From positions 1 through 10,545 of the forward strand of contig JAGHCZ010000136.1 in assembly GCA_021160205.1 (NCBI GenBank): 10,545 bases of DNA. The letters run 5' to 3'. The notes below the pieces were generated by a model, which saw nothing but the letters and a program-made list of their open reading frames with translations, did no database searches and had not been told where the DNA came from. The position numbers were made by a program, and so were the translations under genes. Position 1 is the stretch's first letter, and every line of letters begins with the position of its first letter. Below are positions 583 to 10,545 of this stretch, piece by piece. The stretch comes from Nitrososphaerota archaeon (lineage in GTDB: Archaea; Thermoproteota; Nitrososphaeria_A; Caldarchaeales; Wolframiiraptoraceae).

Positions 583-3114
583 CTAAACCGCTTTCTTCTT
601 GGTAATTCTTCTGAAGATGAGAACGCTCACGAGGATAATGGCAGAGATGACCGCGGCGCCGATGTAAGGAATTAACGCCATTATGTCAGAGACATTCACA
701 ATTAATCCAAAAATATTTATCACATCAAACTTAATGGTAGTTTCCCCTCCCGGTCCAACGACGCCTCTAGATTCGAGAGAATCGTACTTCACTCTAACCT
801 CATATGCTCGAAGCAGGGGAATTCGGGAAAAAACGGCGATCCCATCGGCGTTCGACATCTCCCTAGAAAGTTGAGAACCATAGCAGAGCAGGACTATTTC
901 AGCCCCTCGAATGGGCTTTCCGAACCAATCTATCACCTTAACCGTGATCCTAGCTTCTCGAATCTTTAAGAGAACCGGTTCCCCGTTGAAGGTGACGTTT
1001 CCGAGATAAACCGGTATTGAGGTATATGGGTAATTCACTCTCACAGAATAATTCGAGAATAACGCTTTTCTAAAGACCGCTTTTCCCTCGACATCGGTCA
1101 GCCCCTTAAACTTTATTTCATTACCCCGAGTTAAGATCACCTCAGATTTTCGAATGGGATCGCCGTTTTCCCAAACGACCTTGACAACCATATCCTTGAT
1201 AGGCAATCTAAGCACGGTCATTCCGTGAAGATCTTTGGCTTCAATCAGCTTTGAGAGAATCGTTATGTTTTCCGACGTGTAAATCGTCAAGTTGCATAAT
1301 CCATCCGGAACCAAATCGACGTGCAGCGCGACCATCGGCGCCCTAGATTCATACGTCGCTCCTGAGGAATCTCTTAAAAACCAGAGCGCGCCGAAGGGTT
1401 TGCCTTCCCACGTCACGAGCTTCAAGTTTATCTCATATATGGCCGTTGAGATGTTTTTGCGGACAGTACTAGAGATTTCAAGTGATTCTTTATAGACCTC
1501 GACTCCGCGCCAAAAAACTTTCACAGGATACGTCCCTTCGGGGATCCCGGAAAAGACTACGGAGCCGACTTTATCGGTTAGTTTCGAGATTGGGCCTAGG
1601 CTTACGCTGGCATTCGGAAGCGGCAGCCCATCAGCGCTTATTATTCTGAGTTCAGCTGCGTGTATTGGAAGCTCTATATCGGAAGCCTTTCCGGGCTCAT
1701 AAACTCCAACGGAGTCCACGCATACCCCGAAGGTCGAAGAACAGTTGATCGCTTCAACTCGATACTTCCCCATCGGGAGCTGGGTGATGTTCAGGAATCC
1801 ATTTCTAGAATAGGATTTTGTCGGCGGCAGCGCGCCTTCTAGATCCACGACCGTGAAGTTCGCTCCTACCGGGTTACCACCCGTATCAACTGCTTGCACG
1901 ATTAAATCGGCTATGGGCAGCTTAATTTTATAAGATGGCTTCTTGACTTCGGGCATTAAAGTCGGATGATATCCTATCCAAATCCACGTATCGTAGATCT
2001 TCAAATTTTTCCAGTAAATTTGCAAAGAATGATTTCCATAGGGCACCAAGGTATGCACAGCGACCCCATTTTCAGACAGCTTCTCAATTCCATCCAAGAT
2101 TATTGAGGCACCGTTTAGAGGCCTGTCCATTAAATCAATTGGCCGTATCTCAACGTTGAACACCCAAGTTCTCAAATTCTTCGACGACGCGAGATCATAT
2201 GCCGAACGAGTCCCCGCATAAACGAACGGAGTCCTTTGAGGATAGCTGCCGTTCCAGTAAACCTTTATCTCGTAGTCGTCTTCCTTAAGCCTGGTTATGC
2301 GAATTGTACCGTTCTCCGGCACGGTGTATTCTCTTCGCTCGTGGTAATAAACGAGCCTCCTAATCACCACCTTAGCTCCCGTAAGCGTATGCAATCCATC
2401 AAAATCCGTTATGGTTAAGTTGAAACTTCTATAAGGCTGAATTTCGAATGGGCCGGTTGTCGGATAATTCTCCAGCGTGTAATCTATCCACTCTGGGTAG
2501 TGAACGCGGATATCTAAGTATGGTTTTTTGAATTTTTCCTCTGGAGTTATGTCGGGTGGAATAAATATTTTGAAGCAGATCTTGGTCGACGAGTCCGCGT
2601 CATTTCCGTTTAGGATGAAGTCTATGGGATTAAATGCGCTGAGCTCCAAGTTTATGTCGCAGCTCGATCCCAGATCTCTTCCACGGTATTTCTTCCAGGG
2701 GAACCAGAAAAGCGCGTTCAGAACCTTTATCGATCTGCCTTTGCAGGCGCCTATGATTGTGAGCTTGATGTCGTATTTGAGCCGACCCTCGTAGCTGTAG
2801 AACTTCATGTATTCAACCGTGTAATTTTTAATCTTGCCCTCGTTCATCATTTGATCTGCCCTTTTCAAGATTCCTTTGAGCTCCAGATCAGTGATCATTT
2901 TTAGCTCGATTCCCTGGGGCTCCGATCTCAGAGGACAATCCATATTCGTTATGTTCGCGCAAACCGTTCCCCACTCGCCCATATAGAGCTCAGAAGGCAG
3001 AAGCTCCACTTTAAAATTCCAAGTTGGCTGTGCACGAGGACTTTGGATACCTGCGAGCGCCAACGAAAAAAGAAGAAGCACGACAAGAATGACCCAAGAA
3101 CTTTTCAGCCTCAT
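583..3114 (-). CDS. Secreted, membrane-anchored surface protein with tandem Ig-like/carboxypeptidase-regulatory-like repeats
   Basis: The 843-residue product begins with a signal peptide (basic MRLK, hydrophobic core at about residues 7-21, likely cleavage near AQP at 28-30). It ends with one membrane segment (about 814-834) followed by RRITKKK, so nearly the whole chain should lie outside the cell. Residues 31-230 form a non-repetitive N-terminal region with six cysteines. About seven repeats of 65-80 residues follow, starting near 231, 320, 402, 486, 560, 641 and 721. Each has the plan strand, D/W-x-x-G-x-P-(L/I)-x-GA, then T/S-D/N-x-x-G-x-(A/V)-x-F, then YxVxVxW/Y, typical of carboxypeptidase-regulatory-like beta-sandwiches. 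I count 16 N-x-S/T sequons. No enzyme motif is visible, so a structural, adhesive or S-layer-associated role is inferred. The ATG lacks a ribosome binding site, and an AT-rich element lies about 30 bp upstream, which suggests a leaderless transcript. It is divergent from the aro operon; no functional link is evident. Confidence 0.85.
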   Translation of the reverse strand: MRLKSSWVILVVLLLFSLALAGIQSPRAQPTWNFKVELLPSELYMGEWGTVCANITNMDCPLRSEPQGIELKMITDLELKGILKRADQMMNEGKIKNYTVEYMKFYSYEGRLKYDIKLTIIGACKGRSIKVLNALFWFPWKKYRGRDLGSSCDINLELSAFNPIDFILNGNDADSSTKICFKIFIPPDITPEEKFKKPYLDIRVHYPEWIDYTLENYPTTGPFEIQPYRSFNLTITDFDGLHTLTGAKVVIRRLVYYHERREYTVPENGTIRITRLKEDDYEIKVYWNGSYPQRTPFVYAGTRSAYDLASSKNLRTWVFNVEIRPIDLMDRPLNGASIILDGIEKLSENGVAVHTLVPYGNHSLQIYWKNLKIYDTWIWIGYHPTLMPEVKKPSYKIKLPIADLIVQAVDTGGNPVGANFTVVDLEGALPPTKSYSRNGFLNITQLPMGKYRVEAINCSSTFGVCVDSVGVYEPGKASDIELPIHAAELRIISADGLPLPNASVSLGPISKLTDKVGSVVFSGIPEGTYPVKVFWRGVEVYKESLEISSTVRKNISTAIYEINLKLVTWEGKPFGALWFLRDSSGATYESRAPMVALHVDLVPDGLCNLTIYTSENITILSKLIEAKDLHGMTVLRLPIKDMVVKVVWENGDPIRKSEVILTRGNEIKFKGLTDVEGKAVFRKALFSNYSVRVNYPYTSIPVYLGNVTFNGEPVLLKIREARITVKVIDWFGKPIRGAEIVLLCYGSQLSREMSNADGIAVFSRIPLLRAYEVRVKYDSLESRGVVGPGGETTIKFDVINIFGLIVNVSDIMALIPYIGAAVISAIILVSVLIFRRITKKKAV

Positions 3115-3170: not shown

Positions 3171-3184
3171 AAAACTTTATTTAT
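3171..3184 (+). promoter_or_regulatory. Archaeal BRE/TATA promoter of the aro operon leader
   Basis: The sequence AAAACTTTATTTAT holds a TATA box (TTTATTTA, 3176-3183) preceded by an A-rich stretch that can serve as the BRE. Archaeal TATA centres lie about 25-27 bp before the start site, which puts transcription initiation near 3203-3208 in a purine-rich stretch (AAACAAG). The transcript would then begin about 20 nt before the leader-peptide ATG at 3226, leaving room for its Shine-Dalgarno site. This is the best promoter candidate in the 375-bp divergent region and would drive the leader and all seven aro genes. Confidence 0.65.
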
Positions 3185-3214
3185 CCGCCGCTTTTCTAAT
3201 AAACAAGAATTCCA

Positions 3215-3218
3215 GAGG
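3215..3218 (+). promoter_or_regulatory. Ribosome binding site of the leader peptide
   Basis: GAGG (within CCAGAGGCGG) lies 7 nt before the ATG at 3226, an ideal archaeal spacing. It supports real translation of the 28-codon leader. The same bases lie inside a 9-nt segment (3211-3219) perfectly complementary to 3266-3274 within the leader coding sequence, so access to this site may itself be structure-dependent. Confidence 0.6.
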
Positions 3219-3225
3219 CGGAAAA

Positions 3226-3312
3226 ATGAGCCCAACAGAAAACAGCCGCAAAGGAGCCTTCTTTGGCCTCTGGAGCTTTAACTATTATTACTATTATTTC
3301 GCCCTGGCATAA
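3226..3312 (+). CDS. Aromatic-rich leader peptide (28 aa), probable attenuator of the aro operon
   Basis: This short ORF runs ATG at 3226-3228 to TAA at 3310-3312, 28 codons. The first eleven residues are ordinary (MSPTENSRKGA). They are followed by FFGLWSFNYYYYYF (residues 12-25) and ALA. Ten of those fourteen codons encode Phe (4), Trp (1) or Tyr (5), the three end products of the pathway encoded immediately downstream. It has a TATA box at a suitable distance and a GAGG ribosome binding site 7 nt upstream. Its last three codons and the stop are embedded in a GC-rich hairpin (3301-3321). By analogy with the trp and pheA leader peptides of bacteria, the product itself need not matter: ribosome progress through the aromatic codons would sense charged Tyr, Phe and Trp tRNAs. 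The ORF and composition are read directly; the regulatory role is inference. A chance ORF is unlikely given composition, position, promoter, ribosome binding site and hairpin together. Confidence 0.82.
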   Translation: MSPTENSRKGAFFGLWSFNYYYYYFALA

Positions 3313-3343
3313 CGCCAGGGCCCCTCTCTAGAAATTCTTTTTA
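3301..3343 (+). terminator. Attenuator hairpin and T-rich tract overlapping the leader stop codon
   Basis: GCCCTGGC (3301-3308) and GCCAGGGC (3314-3321) form a perfect 8-bp stem, seven pairs G-C, closed by the 5-nt loop ATAAC that holds the leader TAA. Fourteen to 21 nt past the stem lies TTCTTTTT (3335-3342), the kind of T tract at which archaeal RNA polymerase terminates. The left arm begins at the first base after the last aromatic codon (TTC, 3298-3300). A ribosome stalled in the Tyr/Phe run would therefore sit on it and block folding, while a released ribosome leaves it free to fold. The spacer between stem and T tract is longer than in a bacterial intrinsic terminator, so the hairpin may act through pausing or through the termination nuclease FttA/aCPSF1. 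The structure is seen; the termination activity is inferred. Confidence 0.6.
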
Positions 3344-3355
3344 TAGGTGGTTTAT

Positions 3356-3514
3356 ATGTCTGGGGCCCAGTTTATAGAATTTTGGAGGTATATTCTTCGT
3401 CTCGCTATAATGCTAGTGATGGGTGTTTGTGAAAAAATCGAATCGCCGGCTGCTGAACTTGGTGATCTACGGCCTATCGGAGGTGATTTTTGTTGGTGTG
3501 GGGTAAGCAGGTAA
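3356..3514 (+). CDS. Possible second small leader ORF (52 aa) overlapping the start of the ADH synthase gene
   Basis: AGGTG at 3345-3349 stands 6 nt before the ATG at 3356, a very good archaeal ribosome binding site. The frame runs 52 codons to TAA at 3512-3514, overlapping the first 25 nt of the ADH synthase gene in another frame. The N-terminal part (FIEFWRYILRLAIMLVMG) is hydrophobic and again carries F, F, W and Y codons. The stretch ILRLA...GVCEKIE...AELGDL is faintly like the first helix of AroQ chorismate mutases, but only about half such a domain would be present. Use of CGT Arg codons and similar choices differs from the aro genes. Options are a coupling ORF that carries ribosomes through the region before the downstream ribosome binding site, a second sensing peptide, a decayed gene remnant, or chance. 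I cannot choose among them. Confidence 0.35.
   Translation: MSGAQFIEFWRYILRLAIMLVMGVCEKIESPAAELGDLRPIGGDFCWCGVSR
3479..3486 (+). promoter_or_regulatory. Consensus ribosome binding site of the ADH synthase gene
   Basis: GGAGGTGA is the full complement of the archaeal 16S rRNA tail. It is followed by TTT and then three possible in-frame start codons: TTG at 3490, TTG at 3493 and GTG at 3496. The TGA at 3484-3486 closes the frame just upstream, so no earlier start is possible. Spacing from the GGAGG core is 6, 9 and 12 nt, favouring 3490 or 3493. Confidence 0.75.
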
Positions 3515-4293
3515 GGCTGAATCGGATAACCCGGAATGGAAAAATGCTCTGCGTCCCGATGGATCACGGAGTAACTTCGGGACCGATTAAGGGAGTTGAT
3601 AGGATCTATGATTTAATCGCGGACGTTGATCGAGGAGAAGCGACGGCGATCATAGTGCATAAGGGGATCATACGGAACCTGCCTCGACCCATAAAAGCGG
3701 GAATCATAATGCACGCCTCGGGAAGCACGTCGCTCTCCACATCTCCAAATTGGAAGGTACAGGTTGGAACGGTTGAAGAGGCAATTAGGCTCGGCGCAGA
3801 CGCCGTCTCAGTTCATATAAATGTGGGGAACAAGAGCGAGCAAAGCATGCTCTCGAAGCTCGGGATGATGGCTGATGAATGTGATAAGTGGGGTATGCCG
3901 CTGATCGCGATGATGTATCCAAGAGGGGAAAACGTGAAAAACCCGAGAGACCCTAAAATCATAGCGCATGTCGCCAGAATAGGCGCGGAACTCGGAGCCG
4001 ATGTAGTGAAAGTTCCCATGCCGTCATTTAACCCCGACGAAATACGCATCATAACGGAAAGTTGCCCAGTTCCAGTAGTCGCAGCCGGGGGCCCTAAAAT
4101 GGATAACGATCTAAAGATCTTAGAACTCGCATACGCGGTGATGGAGGCCGGAGGAGCTGGAGTAACGTTCGGGAGAAATGTGTTCCAGCACGAGGACCCG
4201 GGGATCATTCTCAGAGCTCTGAAAGCCGTGGTAATTGACGGAAAAAGCGTGGAGGAGGCATGTGAAATCTTAAAGGAGTTGCCCGCGAAATGA
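3490..4293 (+). CDS. aroA': 2-amino-3,7-dideoxy-D-threo-hept-6-ulosonate (ADH) synthase, DhnA-type aldolase
   Basis: This TIM-barrel class I aldolase catalyses the first step of the archaeal shikimate route. It transfers a unit derived from 6-deoxy-5-ketofructose 1-phosphate onto L-aspartate semialdehyde to give ADH, replacing DAHP synthase. The 267-residue length fits the family. The motif PMDHG carries Asp25 and His26, MMYPRG carries Tyr143 and GADVVK carries the likely Schiff-base Lys174. These correspond to the Asp, Tyr and Lys catalytic set of the characterised Methanocaldococcus enzyme. VAAGGPK and [11 protein letters not shown] form the phosphate-binding end of the barrel. The start is uncommon: TTG at 3490, with TTG 3493 and GTG 3496 as alternatives, behind GGAGGTGA. 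The stop overlaps the next gene's start as ATGA. The product is the substrate of the adjacent synthase, so this is not a fructose-bisphosphate aldolase of central metabolism. Confidence 0.93.
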
Positions 4294-5321
4294 AAGAAAT
4301 AATCCTAGCGCTCGAAAAACTAGATGAAAAAATAATAGAGCACGCGCTTGGAAAGGGCTTAAGATCTTTTTACTGCGATCCTGAAGCGGCTCCGAAAAAA
4401 TTCCGAAAACTGATGAGGATATATTTTGAAAACGGCAGCGCAGACGTAAAAGTGATCGATGAGGTAAGCGATGTCGATAAAGAAAATGCCCTCAGAATCA
4501 AGGTTAAGAATCCAGAGGACTTGGATAGGACTCTGGCGGCGGCGAAATCCGGAGTGAAAACTTTGCTCATCGACGCGGAGGATTGGAAGATAATTCCCTT
4601 GGAGAATTTGATAGCTGAATTGAAGCCCTTTGGAGTGAAGATCATCGTGTTCTCCGAATTAAGTGAAGTCGAAACCCTTCTAGGCGTGTTGGAACATGGA
4701 GTTGATGGAGTGATCGTTAAGCTTGATAAGGCGGCCGACATAGACCTGGTCTCCGACCTCGTTAATGCGCCTAGAAGAATCGAGCTAGCCGCGGCGGAAG
4801 TAATAGATGTGAAAAATATCGGGCTTGGAGAGCGAGCGTGCATAGACACGACCTCTATTCTTAACTTAGGGGAGGGAATTCTCATCGGGAACACTTCAGC
4901 TCTATTCGCGTTAGTCCATAATGAGAGCTTGGGATCGAAATTTACGTCTCCTAGGCCGTTCAGAGTAAACGCGGGAGCCGTTCATTCCTACATCTTCATG
5001 CCGGATAAAACCACGAGATATCTGTCAGAGCTAAAAGCAGGAGACCGAGTCCTCATCGTTTCGAAGAATAAAGCCAGAGTTGCGGCAATCGGCAGAATAA
5101 AGATCGAACGAAGACCGCTGAAAATCATTAAGGTCAAGGTAGGCCCAATTGAAGGATCCGTAACGCTTCAAGATGCCGAGACGATAACGCTTCTCCGATC
5201 CGATGGATCCCCCATCTCCGTCACATCGATCAACCCTGGAGACAGAATCTTGGTCCACGTAGCAGAATCAAAAGCCAGGCACTTTGGAAAAGCCGTGGAT
5301 GAATTTATAATTGAGAGGTGA
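4290..5321 (+). CDS. aroB': 3-dehydroquinate synthase II (archaeal, NAD-dependent)
   Basis: This enzyme oxidatively deaminates and cyclises ADH to 3-dehydroquinate with NAD+. It is unrelated to bacterial AroB. The 343 residues are close to the usual family length. Characteristic C-terminal signatures are present: [20 protein letters not shown] (181-200), then LFALVHNE and [13 protein letters not shown] (222-234), then an [15 protein letters not shown] strand region (243-257) leading into a beta-rich tail with [10 protein letters not shown] (315-324). The N-terminal half is more divergent, as is common in the family. ATG at 4290 overlaps the ADH synthase stop by 4 nt, with GGAG at 4275-4278, implying translational coupling. 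The TGA at 5319-5321 is itself part of the ribosome binding site of aroD. Pairing with the ADH synthase in one transcript confirms the assignment of both. Confidence 0.93.
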
Positions 5322-5325
5322 TGTA

Positions 5326-6009
5326 ATGGGCTCTGCAACGAAGATTTGCGCGAGCATAAAGGCCCCGACCATCGAAGAATTCGAGGAAAAAGCGGAAAAG
5401 GCGTTAGAAATGGGGGCAGATCTCATAGAATTTAGACTAGATTACCTTCAGAGAATAGATCTAAAAAACATCGCAGGGCTCTTGGAAAAATTTGCTGAAA
5501 AAAGCATCTTTACCTTGAGGCCTACCTGGGAAGGAGGTTATTTTAGCGGAGGCGAAGAAAAGCGATTAAACATTTTGGCCAAAATATCTGAGATGAACCC
5601 GGCGTACATTGACATGGAACTGGATTCGAGCAGCGTCGAGAGAAAAGTCCCTGAAATTAGGAAAAAGGCAAAGCTCATAATTTCAAAACACGATTTCGAT
5701 GGATCACTAAACGTGGGTTCTCTCAGAGAGCTCGCTTCGAAAGCGCTGAAACTCGGAGAAATAGCGAAGATAGTTGTATCCGCTAAGTCTTTCTCCGATA
5801 ACTTGAAGATCCTAAGCTTATACGATGTTTTTCCGACGAATAAGCTAATAGCATTCGCCATGGGAGAACGTGGAATAATCTCGAGGATAGTTTCATCGCT
5901 GATCGGAGCGCCGATAGCTTATGCTTGTTTGCCCGGCGAAGAAATCGCTCCAGGCCAGTTAAGCGTTAGAGATCTTAAGAAAATTTTGGAGCTGGCGAGA
6001 GGAAAATGA
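5326..6009 (+). CDS. aroD: 3-dehydroquinate dehydratase, type I
   Basis: The enzyme dehydrates 3-dehydroquinate to 3-dehydroshikimate through a Schiff base. The 227-residue chain is a type I (not type II) enzyme: EFRLDYL at 35-41, FTLRPTWEGGYFSGGEEKR at 62-80, YIDMEL at 94-99, SKHDFD with the general acid/base His122, AKIVVSAK with the probable Schiff-base Lys148, then FAMGERGIISRI and EEIAPGQLSV at the C terminus. I chose ATG at 5326 because AGAGGTGA lies 4 nt before it at 5314-5321. A TTG at 5311 is in frame, but starting there would put the ribosome binding site inside the gene. Only 4 nt separate this start from the preceding stop, and the end overlaps aroE by ATGA. Confidence 0.95.
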   Translation: MGSATKICASIKAPTIEEFEEKAEKALEMGADLIEFRLDYLQRIDLKNIAGLLEKFAEKSIFTLRPTWEGGYFSGGEEKRLNILAKISEMNPAYIDMELDSSSVERKVPEIRKKAKLIISKHDFDGSLNVGSLRELASKALKLGEIAKIVVSAKSFSDNLKILSLYDVFPTNKLIAFAMGERGIISRIVSSLIGAPIAYACLPGEEIAPGQLSVRDLKKILELARGK

Positions 6010-6857
6010 TTGATGCTTCGACTAGGCTTTGCTGCTTGATAGGTCACCCCGTCTCACATTCGCTTTCACCTCAAATTCATAACGCCGCGTTCAAAGCGCT
6101 TAACCTAAACTACGCCTATTTGACGTTCGACGTCCGCGTAGATGAGCTGGAGAACGCGATTAGGGGGCTTAAGGCTTTAGGAGCAACGGGATTCAACATC
6201 ACCATTCCTCACAAGATCCGCGCCGTGCGTTTTCTGGACGAGCTAGATGAGATGGCCGAGAAGGCCGGGGCGGTGAACACGGTCGTGATAAAAAACGGGA
6301 AGCTATTTGGATACAATACGGACGTCTATGGAGTCGAAGAATCCCTGAGGAACCTTGACCTTCCCAAGTCGAAGCCCGCGCTCGTCATCGGGGCAGGTGG
6401 AGCCGCGAAAGCCGTCTTGGTCGCGCTTCTGAACTTGGGGTTTAGAAGGTTCGTGATCGCTAATAGAACGATTAGGAAAGCGGAGGCGCTAGCGAGCTGG
6501 ATCGAATCGATGAACGCTGAGGCGGAGTTCTGCGGCTTGGATCAAATCAAGGAAAAATCCGCGGACTGTGGGCTGCTCGTGAACGCGACTCCTATTGGAA
6601 TGACCCCGAAAACCGATGAAACACCTTTAACTAGCGTAGAAATACCTAGGACATCAATCGCATTAGATCTCGTGTATAACCCCTTAAAAACCAGATTTCT
6701 TAAGGAAGCCGAAAAAGCCGGAGCCGAAACTATTTCGGGATTAAGCGTTCTGGTTCATCAAGCTGCTAAGGCGTTTGAATTATGGACTGACTGTTGTCCT
6801 CCTTTGGAAGTTATGTGGGACGCGGCCGCGCAAGCGCTTCGGGGGATCTATGGATGA
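6006..6857 (+). CDS. aroE: Shikimate dehydrogenase (NADP-dependent)
   Basis: It reduces 3-dehydroshikimate to shikimate. All standard signatures are present in 283 residues: GHPVSHSLSPQIHN (13-26) for substrate binding, NITIPHK (64-70) with catalytic Lys70, GAVNTV (88-93), GYNTD (102-106) with catalytic Asp106, the Rossmann nucleotide loop GAGGAA (129-134), NRT shortly after it (the basic residue fits NADP), NATPIGM, LDLVYNP and the closing GLSVLVHQAAKAFELWT. It starts with ATG at 6006 overlapping the aroD stop, with GAGAGG at 5997-6002. The TGA at 6855-6857 overlaps the aroK start. The product feeds directly to the kinase encoded next. Length and motifs are ordinary, and no defect is visible. 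Confidence 0.96.
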   Translation: MIDASTRLCCLIGHPVSHSLSPQIHNAAFKALNLNYAYLTFDVRVDELENAIRGLKALGATGFNITIPHKIRAVRFLDELDEMAEKAGAVNTVVIKNGKLFGYNTDVYGVEESLRNLDLPKSKPALVIGAGGAAKAVLVALLNLGFRRFVIANRTIRKAEALASWIESMNAEAEFCGLDQIKEKSADCGLLVNATPIGMTPKTDETPLTSVEIPRTSIALDLVYNPLKTRFLKEAEKAGAETISGLSVLVHQAAKAFELWTDCCPPLEVMWDAAAQALRGIYG

Positions 6858-7714
6858 AAGCTAAAGCTAGGGTACATGGAGCGGTCAGTATTTTGAATGC
6901 CATTCCAACGGGAATTGGAGGAGCGATCGGCGTCGATTTGTGGACCGAGGTGGAAGTGGAGTTTTTCAGCGGAAATGGAGCAATCGAGATCGAAATACCT
7001 GAAGGAGAAGACCCAGCCCTCGCGGAAGAGGCGGTAAAAATCGTTCTTGAGCATATAGGGAAAAAAGACGTTAGCGCGCGGGTTAAGACCTCTTCAAATA
7101 TCCCCATTGGGAGAGGGTTAAAGAGCTCGAGCGCGGCGGCGAACGCCGTAGTCCTCGCAGCGTGTAAGGCACTTGGCTTAAATCTTTCATCAAGAGAGGT
7201 TGTGAACCTTTCGATCGATGCTTCGATTAAGGCGGGCGTCACAGTAACGGGCGCGTTTGACGACGCTTACACGAGCTTCTTCGGGGGAATAAACATCGCC
7301 GACAATTATAGAAGACAAGTTCTTCTGAGATCCGATGTCCCCGAAGATCTTTCAGTTTTGATCCTAGTCCCAGATGAAAAGCGCTACACGAGGTCGATTG
7401 AGGTTAATGCCTTGAAAAACGTTAGAAAAATTTGCGTGAAAGCCATGGATCTAGCTCTTTCAGGAAAATTCTGGGACGCGATGACCTTAAACGGGGTGGC
7501 GATTTCTACGGCGCTAGACATGGATCCAATCCCCGCTCTTGAAGCCCTTCGAGCCGGCGCCTTAGGGGCAGGAATCTCAGGAACCGGGCCAGCCGTCGCC
7601 GCCGTAGCTCCCCGAAGCAGAGCGGAAAAAGTTTCGCGAGTTCTTGAAAGACATGGCCGCGTGCTCAAATGCCGTCCAAATAATAGTTCTGCTCGCGTGG
7701 AGATTTTGAGGTGA
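6854..7714 (+). CDS. aroK: Archaeal shikimate kinase, GHMP family
   Basis: This is the archaeal replacement for the bacterial NMP-kinase-like AroK. It phosphorylates shikimate at O3 with ATP but belongs to the homoserine/mevalonate kinase (GHMP) superfamily. In 286 residues the ATP-binding glycine/serine motif is clear at 84-97 (PIGRGLKSSSAAAN), together with ILNAIPTGIGGAIGVDL (13-29), TGAFDDAYTSFFGG in the middle and the C-terminal GAGISGTGPAVAAV motif at 238-251. I place the start at ATG 6854, overlapping the aroE stop (ATGA), because family members begin with this KAKARVHGAVSILNAI stretch. An in-frame upstream codon at 6794 would add 20 residues that lie wholly inside aroE and lack family character. 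The TGA lies inside the ribosome binding site of aroA. Confidence 0.93.
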   Translation: MKAKARVHGAVSILNAIPTGIGGAIGVDLWTEVEVEFFSGNGAIEIEIPEGEDPALAEEAVKIVLEHIGKKDVSARVKTSSNIPIGRGLKSSSAAANAVVLAACKALGLNLSSREVVNLSIDASIKAGVTVTGAFDDAYTSFFGGINIADNYRRQVLLRSDVPEDLSVLILVPDEKRYTRSIEVNALKNVRKICVKAMDLALSGKFWDAMTLNGVAISTALDMDPIPALEALRAGALGAGISGTGPAVAAVAPRSRAEKVSRVLERHGRVLKCRPNNSSARVEILR

Positions 7715-7718
7715 GAAA

Positions 7719-9017
7719 ATGAAAACGGTGTTCGTAAAGCCATCGATCTTCGAGGGAGTTATCACGGCTCCGCCGAGCAAGCCTTACACTCATAGAGCTC
7801 TCGCCGCTGCGCTCATATCGGAGGGAATAAGCACGGTGATAAAGCCGTTGAAAGCCCGAGACATCGAAGCGACTAAGAGAGCATGCATCCTATTAGGAGC
7901 GAAGATTATGGAGGAAGACTGGGTCATGAACCTAAATGGCGGAGTATTGAAAACCCCAGAGGACATAATCGACGTGGGAAACTCGGGAACCACTCTCAGG
8001 CTTTTCACAGCGATCTCGGCCTTGGCTCCAGAAGGCTACGCGATCCTCACCGGAGACGAGAGCATAAGGAGGAGGCCGATGCAGCCGCTACTTAGAGCGC
8101 TACGAGATTTAGGAGTAGATTGCTGGCCTAGTAAGGTGAATGGAACTGCGCCGATAATCGTGAAGTGCGGTGGGATGAGAGGCGGCGAAGCGAGAATAAC
8201 TGGGGAAATTTCTTCGCAGTTTATTTCCGCTCTTCTCTATGCATCCGTTAAATCTGAGAGAGAAGTGAGAATAATCGTTGAAGGCGATTTGGTGTCCAAG
8301 CCTTATATCGATGCGAGTATAGAGGTCTTGAAGCGCTTCGGATTCGAGGTCAAACGAAGCGGATATGAGCTATTTGAAGTAGATGGCCCTCAAACTGGAA
8401 AGCCGTGTTCCTTCGAGGTTCCAGGGGATTATAGTTCAGCTGCATTATTCATGGCGGCGGCTTATCTAACCGGGGGAAAAGTCGTGATAAATGGATTGGA
8501 CCAAAGCTTGCCTCAGGCGGATGCGAAAATCATCGAGATCATAAAGAAATTCGGAGGACGAGTTCACGTATCATCAAACTTGGTAGCCGTTTCGGGAACG
8601 AATGGAGGAGGCGGAGGGGAGTTCGATCTTAAAGAGTCGCCTGATTTGCTGCCGATCGTCGCTGCCATGGCGGCCAAGACGCGGGGAGAGACCATTATAA
8701 GGGGAGTGAGCCATGCGAGATATAAGGAAAGTGACAGATTGAAATCGATCTCCACTGAACTTAGGAAGCTCGGAGTAGTAGTTGAAGAACGGCGAGATGG
8801 ATTGAGGATTAAGGGAAGGAAAGAGCTGAGCGGGGGATGCGTATTAGAGGCTCATGGAGATCACAGAATCTTCATGGCCTTGGCGATTCTAGCCGCGTCG
8901 ACCGAGCGTGGATGCTTTATTAACGGGGCGGAGCTCGCCGAAATATCTTACCCGAGCTTCCTCGAACACGCGCGTATTCTAGGAATGAAATTCAAAGTCG
9001 TGGAGGAAGAGCTATGA
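7719..9017 (+). CDS. aroA: 3-phosphoshikimate 1-carboxyvinyltransferase (EPSP synthase)
   Basis: It transfers the enolpyruvyl group of phosphoenolpyruvate to shikimate 3-phosphate. The 432 residues match the usual two-domain inverse alpha/beta barrel. Visible motifs are PPSKPYTHR (18-26; Lys21 and Arg26 bind substrates), VGNSGTTLR (86-94), TGDESIRRRPMQPL (111-124), GEISSQFISALL (162-173), SKPYID (193-198), SPDLLP (307-312) with the catalytic Asp309, RYKESDRL (334-341) with Glu337, and HGDHR (379-383). A glycine run at 296-300 lies in a surface loop just before the active-site strand. ATG at 7719 follows GAGGTGA (7708-7714), which also contains the aroK stop; the gap is 4 nt. The 3' end overlaps aroC by ATGA. 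Confidence 0.96.
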   Translation: MKTVFVKPSIFEGVITAPPSKPYTHRALAAALISEGISTVIKPLKARDIEATKRACILLGAKIMEEDWVMNLNGGVLKTPEDIIDVGNSGTTLRLFTAISALAPEGYAILTGDESIRRRPMQPLLRALRDLGVDCWPSKVNGTAPIIVKCGGMRGGEARITGEISSQFISALLYASVKSEREVRIIVEGDLVSKPYIDASIEVLKRFGFEVKRSGYELFEVDGPQTGKPCSFEVPGDYSSAALFMAAAYLTGGKVVINGLDQSLPQADAKIIEIIKKFGGRVHVSSNLVAVSGTNGGGGGEFDLKESPDLLPIVAAMAAKTRGETIIRGVSHARYKESDRLKSISTELRKLGVVVEERRDGLRIKGRKELSGGCVLEAHGDHRIFMALAILAASTERGCFINGAELAEISYPSFLEHARILGMKFKVVEEEL

Positions 9018-10135
9018 GGGGAAATATTTTGGGAGAAAGATTCGTAGTCACGAGCTTCGGGGAAAGTCATGGAAAATGCGTAGGGGCGGTTATTGACGGA
9101 TGCCCAGCCGGCCTCAAACTCGAGGAGAAAGATATTCAAAAAGAACTCGATTTAAGAAGGCCTTCTAATACGTTGATCTCGACCTCGAGAAAGGAAGAAG
9201 ACTTGGTTGAGATCTTGTCTGGAACATTTGAGGGATATACTACTGGAGCGCCTATCTGCGCCTTGGTGTGGAATAAAGATGTTCGAAGCAGAGACTATGA
9301 TTTGATTAGAGAGCATCCTAGGCCGAGTCACGCGGATTATTATGCTTACGTGAAATACGGGGGATTCAACGATTATAGAGGAGGGGGAAGATTTTCGGGA
9401 AGAATTACGGTCGGATTCGTGATCGCCGGAGCTATAGCTAAAAAACTGCTCATGGAAACTCTAGGAATAGAAATTATAGGGTACACTGTCGAGATAGGCG
9501 GAGTGAGAGCCGAAAAATTCACGCTAGACGAGGCGAAGAAATTGAGGTATCTCAACGAGGTCAGAGCTCCAAGCCGAATGGCAGCCGAGGAGATGAAAAC
9601 CAGAATACTTGAGGCTAGGAGGCGGGGAGATAGCGTCGGAGGAATTGTCGAATGCGTGGCCACAGGTCTTCCTATAGGATTAGGAGAACCCGTATTCGAC
9701 GCGCTGGATTCTGACCTCGCTAAAGCCCTGATGTCTATTCCTGGAGCCCGAGGAGTTGAATTTGGAGCTGGATTTAAAGCCGCTAAAATGACGGGGTCGC
9801 AGCACAACGATCCATTGGTCATCAAGAACGGCTCGATTACATCGGAGAAGAACGATGCGGGCGGAGTTATCGGAGGCTTATCCACGGGTATGCCGTTAAT
9901 AGTTCGCGTTGCCTTTAAGCCGCCAAGTTCGATAGCGATTAAGCAGAAAACGGTTAACTTGCGATCCATGAAGGAAGCCGAGATAGCTATTCCAGGTAGA
10001 CATGATGCGAGCATAGTTCCAAGAGCTGTGCCGGTTGTGGAGGCGATGGTGGCGGTCGTCTTGGCGGATCACGCCCTTAGAGCCGGATTAATTCCATCGA
10101 TCCTAGGCGGGAGGAAAACGGGAGATTTAAGGTAG
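9014..10135 (+). CDS. aroC: Chorismate synthase
   Basis: It removes phosphate from EPSP to make chorismate, using reduced FMN. The 373 residues carry every family signature: SFGESHG with His19, DLRRPS (46-51), RPSHADYYAYVKYGGFNDYRG in which His106 is the second conserved histidine, GGGRFSGR (123-130), IPGARGVEFGAGF, GSQHNDP, GGVIGGLSTGMP and GRHDASIVPRAVPVVEAM, where Asp331 of GRHD is catalytic. ATG at 9014 overlaps the aroA stop, with GGAGG at 9002-9006. It is the last gene of the operon on this strand and closes the pathway to the branch point for Phe, Tyr and Trp. Its TAG at 10133-10135 lies beyond the stop codon of the convergent tyrA gene, a 9-nt tail-to-tail overlap. No FMN reductase domain is fused. 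Confidence 0.97.
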   Translation: MRGNILGERFVVTSFGESHGKCVGAVIDGCPAGLKLEEKDIQKELDLRRPSNTLISTSRKEEDLVEILSGTFEGYTTGAPICALVWNKDVRSRDYDLIREHPRPSHADYYAYVKYGGFNDYRGGGRFSGRITVGFVIAGAIAKKLLMETLGIEIIGYTVEIGGVRAEKFTLDEAKKLRYLNEVRAPSRMAAEEMKTRILEARRRGDSVGGIVECVATGLPIGLGEPVFDALDSDLAKALMSIPGARGVEFGAGFKAAKMTGSQHNDPLVIKNGSITSEKNDAGGVIGGLSTGMPLIVRVAFKPPSSIAIKQKTVNLRSMKEAEIAIPGRHDASIVPRAVPVVEAMVAVVLADHALRAGLIPSILGGRKTGDLR

Positions 10136-10545
10136 AATTGCTTGCGGTAATTTCTTAAGCGCTTTCTCAACGTTTTTCCATGCTTCGCGGTCATCGCTTC
10201 CCAATCTATTGATGCATTCGATCAGCTTTCTCCTTGCCAGATCGCCGTAGATATTTGATTCTTGAATTTCTCTGATGACTTTGAAGTTTCTGTGAAGGCT
10301 CTTAAACATTAAAGCGGTTTGTCTCAGAGATCGAGTAGAGTATTTTCCCAAAAGCTTCGGATCTACGGATTCCCATAGAGCAAGCGCTAGAGAGAGGTAA
10401 GTTACGTGATGCGCTACTTGAATGAAGGCCATTAGAGCGTCATGTTCCTCGGGAGCGGGGACGACGACGTTTAAACCGATTCTCTTGAACAAGTTCACTA
10501 CCCTGATCAGGGATCCAGCATCTCGGATGGGGATCACGGCGATCC
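10127..10545 (-). CDS. tyrA: Prephenate dehydrogenase (TyrA-like), C-terminal part only
   Basis: The minus-strand frame is open to the window edge, so only about 139 C-terminal residues are seen. A GTG at 10537 is internal, preceded by in-frame Ile-Ala at the edge. The fragment begins in the end of the catalytic region (VIPIRDAG) and continues with a short helix and VVVPAPEEHDALMAFIQVAHH, a match to the HD...H motif that opens the alpha-helical dimerisation domain of prephenate dehydrogenases. An all-helical tail follows. The enzyme oxidatively decarboxylates prephenate to 4-hydroxyphenylpyruvate on the way to tyrosine. The NAD-binding domain, and any fused chorismate mutase or dehydratase domain, would lie beyond the edge. 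It converges with aroC, so it is not in the aro operon and needs its own promoter. Family call is good from this fragment; exact substrate specificity is not shown. Confidence 0.8.
   Translation of the reverse strand, partial: IAVIPIRDAGSLIRVVNLFKRIGLNVVVPAPEEHDALMAFIQVAHHVTYLSLALALWESVDPKLLGKYSTRSLRQTALMFKSLHRNFKVIREIQESNIYGDLARRKLIECINRLGSDDREAWKNVEKALKKLPQAILP

Follow-up and report, generated by a model that had tools for sequence, protein, structure and literature searches.

The stretch of DNA analyzed in this work (10,545 nucleotides; hereafter, the window) carries a shikimate operon preceded by a short ORF very rich in codons for aromatic amino acids, and the question that arises is whether this ORF belongs to a device through which the ribosome gauges the supply of Phe, Tyr, and Trp. 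In the light of the evidence discussed below, we consider it probable that the region is a cis-acting, ribosome-read sensor of aromatic amino acid supply, placed on the (lysC-asd-)ADHS-shikimate operon in a single class of archaea.

The leader ORF and its RNA in the window

The first gene of the operon (3493..4293, plus strand) encodes ADH synthase (2-amino-3,7-dideoxy-D-threo-hept-6-ulosonate synthase, ADHS); it matches PF01791, scores above the cut-off of NF005556, reaches 295.9 bits against TIGR01949 (cut-off 299.45), and starts at the TTG in position 3493 according to the alignment with its relatives. It is followed on the same strand (4290..10135) by the genes for DHQ synthase II, dehydroquinase, shikimate dehydrogenase, the archaeal shikimate kinase, EPSP synthase, and chorismate synthase. 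As for the flanking regions, positions 583-3114 encode a divergent protein of 843 residues containing carboxypeptidase-regulatory-like repeats; a gene similar in size and start occupies the same place in genome G046, and a broken-up one in G041. Close to the edge of the window (10127-10537, minus strand) there is a fragment with a match to the prephenate dehydrogenase dimerization domain.

The initial annotation had described, ahead of the first aro gene, an ORF of 28 codons with its own GAGG site and with ten aromatic codons out of fourteen, and the sequence bears it out. The leader ORF (3226..3312, plus strand; MSPTENSRKGAFFGLWSFNYYYYYFALA) starts with the ATG at 3226-3228, stops with the TAA at 3310-3312, and is preceded by a Shine-Dalgarno (SD) motif GAGG at 3215-3218; its aromatic run (3259..3300, plus strand; FFGLWSFNYYYYYF) consists of F, W, or Y in 10 of 14 codons and includes Phe, Tyr, and Trp, so that all three end products are indeed represented. 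The nine proteins of the window contain 6.7% of F/W/Y and at most six in any stretch of 14 residues; moreover, when the 340 nt preceding ADHS were shuffled 1000 times with their dinucleotides preserved, an ORF with at least ten aromatic codons in 14 never arose. Four metagenome proteins (P0122-P0125) resemble the leader peptide, one of them stopping short of the aromatic run. A TATA-like element (CTTTATTTAT, 3175..3184, plus strand) was recognized by eye and lines up with AAATCTTATATA-like sequences in four relatives; the transcription start is predicted near 3203-3206.

Also the hairpin attributed to this region (a perfect one of 8 bp, beginning directly after the last aromatic codon and enclosing the stop codon) is present at 3301..3321 of the plus strand. 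This helix, which we refer to as P3, is formed by GCCCTGGC (3301-3308) and GCCAGGGC (3314-3321), separated by the loop ATAAC (3309-3313) that holds the leader stop, and its first base immediately follows the last aromatic codon. A second helix, P2, which is absent from the initial annotation, joins the strand containing the leader SD (TTCCAGAGGC, 3210..3219, plus strand) to that of the Leu-Trp-Ser codons of the leader (GCCTCTGGAG, 3266..3275, plus strand). The 141-nt leader folds better than its shuffled versions (z -2.72; 3 of 200 as good); the fold of a 175-nt stretch, extending into a second short ORF described below, is unremarkable relative to shuffles (z -1.17; 24 of 200), and, in single-sequence minimum-energy folds of 175-178-nt stretches into that ORF, P2 appears in two cases out of four and P3 in three out of four. 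Rfam 15, with its T-box and riboswitch families, gave no match at gathering score in the window, and the loci of seven relatives gave a single tRNA, away from the leader.

Conservation of the leader and of its helices

Among the best 120 of the 6929 ADHS relatives, one sequence is 99% identical (perhaps that of the window itself) and the others are at 84% or below. The class of the closest genomes was represented by 44 genomes, including Ca. Calditenuis fumarioli and Ca. Terraquivivens ruidianensis, both assigned to Nitrososphaerota by NCBI. ADHS was matched in 39 of them, counted here as 38 since the match in G017 is only distant; no match was retrieved in G027, G028, G042, G043, and G044, and the ADHS of G045 is cut by the end of the contig. 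In four genomes a leader lies directly upstream of ADHS, the endings of the peptide being LWSYWYFGFCYFALA, LWSYWYFGFYYFALA, LWSYFEFYYFALA, and LWSYWYFSFYYFALA. The covariance model built on these four sequences and that of the window found seven more leaders, and the rebuilt model returned the same 11 genomes. Hence, this leader (type I) is harbored by 11 of the 44 class genomes, in addition to the window, and in two gene settings. In the first one (ADHS-type), it precedes ADHS, as it also does in G045; in the second (lysC-type), found in six of the 11 genomes (G001, G029, G030, G031, G032, and G033), it lies about 2.3 kb above ADHS and before the aspartokinase gene, with the order leader-lysC-asd-ADHS seen in G001. 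The presence of asd upstream of ADHS was observed in several class genomes.

The second short ORF (3356..3514, plus strand; 52 codons) overlaps the start of ADHS in the window. It occurs only in ADHS-type members, where it is open in 6 out of 6 (the window, L081, L082, L083, L085, and L149), begins with M.GV in most of them, and ends near the ADHS start. It may represent the remnant of a lost lysC start, since its beginning resembles that of the lysC product of G031 (MSGVIVVKFGG).

The aromatic short ORF that was expected upstream of the operon in relatives is therefore there, unbroken in all the 12 type I sequences, and its stop lies in a hairpin that covaries. All 12 keep the leader frame open, against 2 and 4 for the other two frames; the aligned aromatic run has gaps of 3, 6, or 15 nt and stays aromatic; and the stop, whether TAA, TAG, or TGA, falls inside P3 or overlaps its arm (G046) in every member. 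For each of the 12 members, at most 2 of 1000 shuffles were as aromatic as the real leader. Codon-position counts, carried out on 10 of the 12 leaders (the window and G039 having been left out for gaps), revealed a clear third-position excess in the four ADHS-type leaders (9, 9, 24) and none in the six lysC-type leaders after exclusion of the P3 codons (31, 32, 30).

As regards the RNA, P3 is paired in all the 12 type I sequences, with changes on both sides at three of its eight pairs, and P2 is paired at 96.2% over the same sequences, with one pair changed on both sides. The covariation score of the 12-sequence alignment was matched by one shuffle in 500, the relatedness of the sequences not being taken into account in this control, and the pairing, 97.8% in the true register, fell to at most 56% when the partners were slid by one to three columns. 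With the first five sequences alone, no compensatory change was observed in either helix. At the level of sequence, these comparisons establish that the conservation of the leader ORF and of its aromatic codons exceeds what chance would give and that the leader RNA forms conserved helices.

In principle, the peptide itself might matter, either as a small functional product or as one that arrests the ribosome through its sequence, and the C-terminal FALA, retained by 10 of the 12 members of type I, would agree with this idea. However, it is the P3 arm that encodes FALA, which becomes FAPA or FTLA where P3 covaries; the change of the peptide (APA, TLA) at these very places indicates that the arm is kept as RNA. 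Since, moreover, the N-terminal half of the leader is hardly conserved and the length of the run varies, we regard a sequence-specific peptide as improbable.

A phylum-wide search for type I with model R1, performed on 398 genomes evenly drawn from a larger group and with eight candidates scored per genome, retrieved, at E below 1e-6, only the same 11 genomes. Matches in G060, G124, G190, G213, and G332 (E 0.002-0.09) are at about chance level; that in G060, the one inspected among them, was not accepted, being apparently on the strand opposite to the adjacent lysC. The same genome, which lies outside the class, has (L151, about 1508-1597) a 29-codon ORF ending in FQYY; its CCTCCTGAA/TTCAGGAGG hairpin is perfect and immediately precedes a lysC-like gene. 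Model R2, run over the window and loci L001-L080, matched only L001 and the window. A scan of the region preceding ADHS in L001-L080, extending over at most 700 nt, found eight aromatic codons in 14 at none of the archaeal loci (the best had seven) and nine at a bacterial one, L072; the leader of L001, placed 2.3 kb further up, was missed because the scan covered only the region before ADHS. Finally, 112 pattern stretches were found in viral contigs, none of them coding for an ADHS relative.

Other aromatic leaders of the class

Different aromatic leaders precede the first gene (lysC or asd) in 21 more genomes of the class. Type II (GYSYYRYSELDASL and variants) is found in six genomes (G003 and G034-G038), type III (AFWFTTYPYFYFGN, FAFTAYTYFYFWEG, and FTTYPYFYTSRRG) in G002, G004, and G016, type IV (YAYFF or YAFYF) in six genomes (G018-G023), and type V (TTFSYYYRW) in G012 and G013; single leaders are SGYTYYRI in G011, GRAYFYTDAP in G024, TTYAYFYAWKS in G015, and FSFFYYRG in G014, the latter without an ATG, GTG, or TTG start. 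In type II (L182-L187), a palindromic hairpin (GCTATAGC...GCTATAGC in several members) holds the Tyr codons, and its loop shows Tyr to Trp changes in two genomes. In G011 (L190, L215), the leader stands before lysC on a contig other than that of ADHS, with a 365-codon frame behind it.

Taking all types together, a leader is present in 32 of the 38 operon-bearing genomes when assigned by homology, position, and reading, with no threshold; G018 and G023 (4/14) and G014 were included by likeness. At the threshold of 5/14, the figure is 31 of 39, window included. The six genomes without such a leader are G007, G008, G009, G010, G025, and G026; in G007, an ORF of 63 residues ending 27 nt upstream, although among the 31 that pass the threshold, was not considered a leader. 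These counts are not independent, since the genomes are related. The distance from the leader stop to the first start codon is 44-59 nt in 26 of 33 leaders (20 of the 21 that are not type I), 81 nt in G015, and 124-180 nt in the six ADHS-type ones.

The same does not hold for the regions upstream of trpE and hisG, used as controls. Among 55 of these, which stop at the start of the domain match rather than at the start codon, at least five aromatic codons in 14 were found in five, at least six in one, and at least seven in none; the corresponding values for 39 operon regions are 31, 21, and 18. Before trpE (all 25 loci found), no ORF has more than two Trp codons in 14, and one has six aromatics; before hisG (30 of the 34 loci found), none has three His codons. 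A MWGMCLWQ-like short ORF near trpE in four related genomes was dropped, as it lies within the trpE start region. Thus, the leader sits before the shikimate operon and not before trpE or hisG. Five genomes (G001 and G030-G033) keep the leader and the operon, while neither trpE nor hisG was found in them and no trpA scored over the cut-off; they retain the Trp codon in the run, and this same codon belongs to P2.

In minimum-energy folds inspected by eye, P2-like helices link the start of the leader to the codons preceding the aromatic run in most leaders; a stop-enclosing hairpin like that of type I also occurs in type IV, G004, and G015; and, outside type I, a closing helix between the leader SD strand and a CU-rich strand, located at the stop or beyond it, was recognized in 15 of 21. 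Pairs were counted for types I and IV, types II and III having been aligned only. In type IV, pairing amounts to 98.9% over three helices, with only one pair changed on both sides; its covariation is no better than that of shuffles (317/500), the sequences being too conserved to covary.

A chance association of ORF and hairpin could be invoked for types II and IV, which are individually within its reach, as up to 223 of 1000 shuffles are as aromatic; the assignment of these weaker types is a tentative one, relying on position and conservation within the family. For type I, on the other hand, chance is already refuted by the shuffles (0/1000 for the window and at most 2/1000 for each member), the conservation, and the covariation, so that this explanation can practically be discarded. 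A structured RNA, such as a riboswitch-like aptamer that merely happens to contain an ORF, would account for the strong and conserved helices and for the palindromic hairpin around the Tyr codons of type II. Nevertheless, the frame is open in every type I member, the aromatic residues are kept while bases and lengths change, the several sequence-unlike leaders are all aromatic, and no Rfam family fits the leader, which makes an aptamer unlikely. An aromatic leader read by the ribosome is, instead, well supported at the level of sequence, because the frame is conserved, the hairpin is conserved and covaries, the other leaders are aromatic as well, and the trpE/hisG controls are low.

Possible mechanism and relation to known attenuators

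The scenario that we favor, that is, a ribosome-read sensor, can be depicted as follows. The leader ORF would be translated, and a scarcity of charged Phe, Tyr, or Trp tRNA would stall the ribosome in the aromatic run; since the last aromatic codon abuts P3, the stalled ribosome would cover the 5' arm of the latter, P3 could not form, and the operon would be expressed. With a good supply, the ribosome would clear the ORF, P3 and P2 would form, and expression would fall; P2, by locking the leader's own SD, would also limit further initiation on the leader. The output of P3 might be termination (intrinsic or through FttA/aCPSF1), translation, or RNA stability. According to PMC8116511, archaeal intrinsic termination occurs at poly(U), and FttA/aCPSF1 represents the termination factor route.

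The initial annotation had put forward early termination at a T tract following the hairpin, under the control of a stalled ribosome. The placement of the last aromatic codon next to the 5' arm of P3 agrees with the stalling part of this model, but its termination output found no support. A T tract is present (TTCTTTTT, 3335..3342, plus strand), but it begins 13 nt past P3 rather than adjacent to it, and a terminator scan of the window did not flag it. Runs of at least five T occur in only 11 of the 33 leaders, even with a generous count spanning the entire gap from the leader stop to the first gene (in G040, a run of five T adjoins the ADHS start); the longest run does not exceed three in types III and IV and in the lysC-type G001, G032, G033, and G029. 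Hence a trp-like transcription attenuation with P3 and the T tract as intrinsic terminator, which would be a special case of the sensor, could appeal to the strong GC hairpin followed by TTCTTTTT in the window and to the T runs of those 11 leaders, but in view of the gap, the unflagged tract, and the short runs elsewhere, it appears doubtful. A candidate antiterminator helix that would compete with P3, GGGCCCC:GGGGYCC, is kept in 5 out of 5 sequences (one with one pair gapped), without compensatory changes and in the ADHS-type only.

A different output would be translational, with the CU-rich strand near the leader stop (at it or past it) acting as an anti-SD for either the leader SD or that of the first gene, and leader translation choosing between them. 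In the minimum-energy folds of G035, G036, G011, G012, and G013, judged by eye, this strand pairs with the lysC SD region. However, type IV and the window's own type have no CU-rich strand before the SD, and a modelled stalled ribosome does not raise the accessibility of the downstream SD (mean change +0.02 at 37 °C and -0.02 at 65 °C), with changes above 0.05 upwards in 9 and downwards in 3 of the 33 leaders at 37 °C, and in 5 and 8, respectively, at 65 °C. A modelled ribosome at the stop codon opens the downstream SD more than the stalled one, which is the wrong direction for a feedback. Overall, such a translational switch seems rather unlikely.

The leaders trpL, pheL, and hisL of enteric bacteria are ribosome-mediated attenuators, and, by analogy, the sensing side of the archaeal leader may work in the same way. 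As in those systems, a short leader ORF rich in end-product codons (clustered in 12 out of 12 members) stands before a biosynthetic operon, and the run adjoins a hairpin whose formation would be prevented by a stalled ribosome. Unlike them, the present leader is archaeal, its SD is locked by P2, its stop lies inside or overlapping the hairpin in all type I members instead of upstream of a terminator, there is neither a conserved U tract directly after the hairpin nor a clear antiterminator pairing, and all three aromatic amino acids are represented. The features that keep this leader outside the trp/phe/his attenuator family are the adjacent U tract and the position of the stop codon, neither of which matches. 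A further term of comparison is L072 (2146-2234), from a bacterial Desulfobacca acetoxidans MAG, where an aromatic leader, KFYYFSYYYFWG (FYYFSYYYFW), upstream of an archaeal-type ADHS is followed by GGCCGTGG...CCACGGCC and six T, by eye a bacterial-looking terminator, unlike the archaeal type.

Concerning archaea, PMC6737238 reports that TrpY (Methanothermobacter) and Tar/TK0271 (Thermococcus) control aromatic amino acid operons; these are described there as DNA-binding proteins acting at promoters, with no leader peptide. Ribo-seq of Methanosarcina mazei revealed short translated uORFs in 5' UTRs (PMC11456600), for which the part of the paper considered describes no amino-acid-rich run, stop hairpin, or attenuation. 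No archaeal leader-peptide attenuator was found in the literature searched, whose scope leaves out most subscription papers and all preprints, so that priority is not proven.

In the archaeal route, ADHS takes aspartate semialdehyde. The placement of lysC and asd under an aromatic leader fits a pathway of this kind.

On the whole, we lean towards the view that archaea use leader-peptide attenuation, in the form of a class-wide aromatic leader on the lysC-asd-ADHS-shikimate operon that exists in several sequence-unlike versions of one plan and whose output differs from the bacterial poly-U terminator. As modelled from the folds, the common plan would comprise a helix locking the leader SD, aromatic codons left open, and a second helix locking the stop or its surroundings. 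A supply gauge read by the ribosome is well known in bacteria, and none was found described for archaea within the literature searched; the candidate defined here by its sequence makes it testable whether, in archaea, the stalling of a ribosome in a leader controls an operon.
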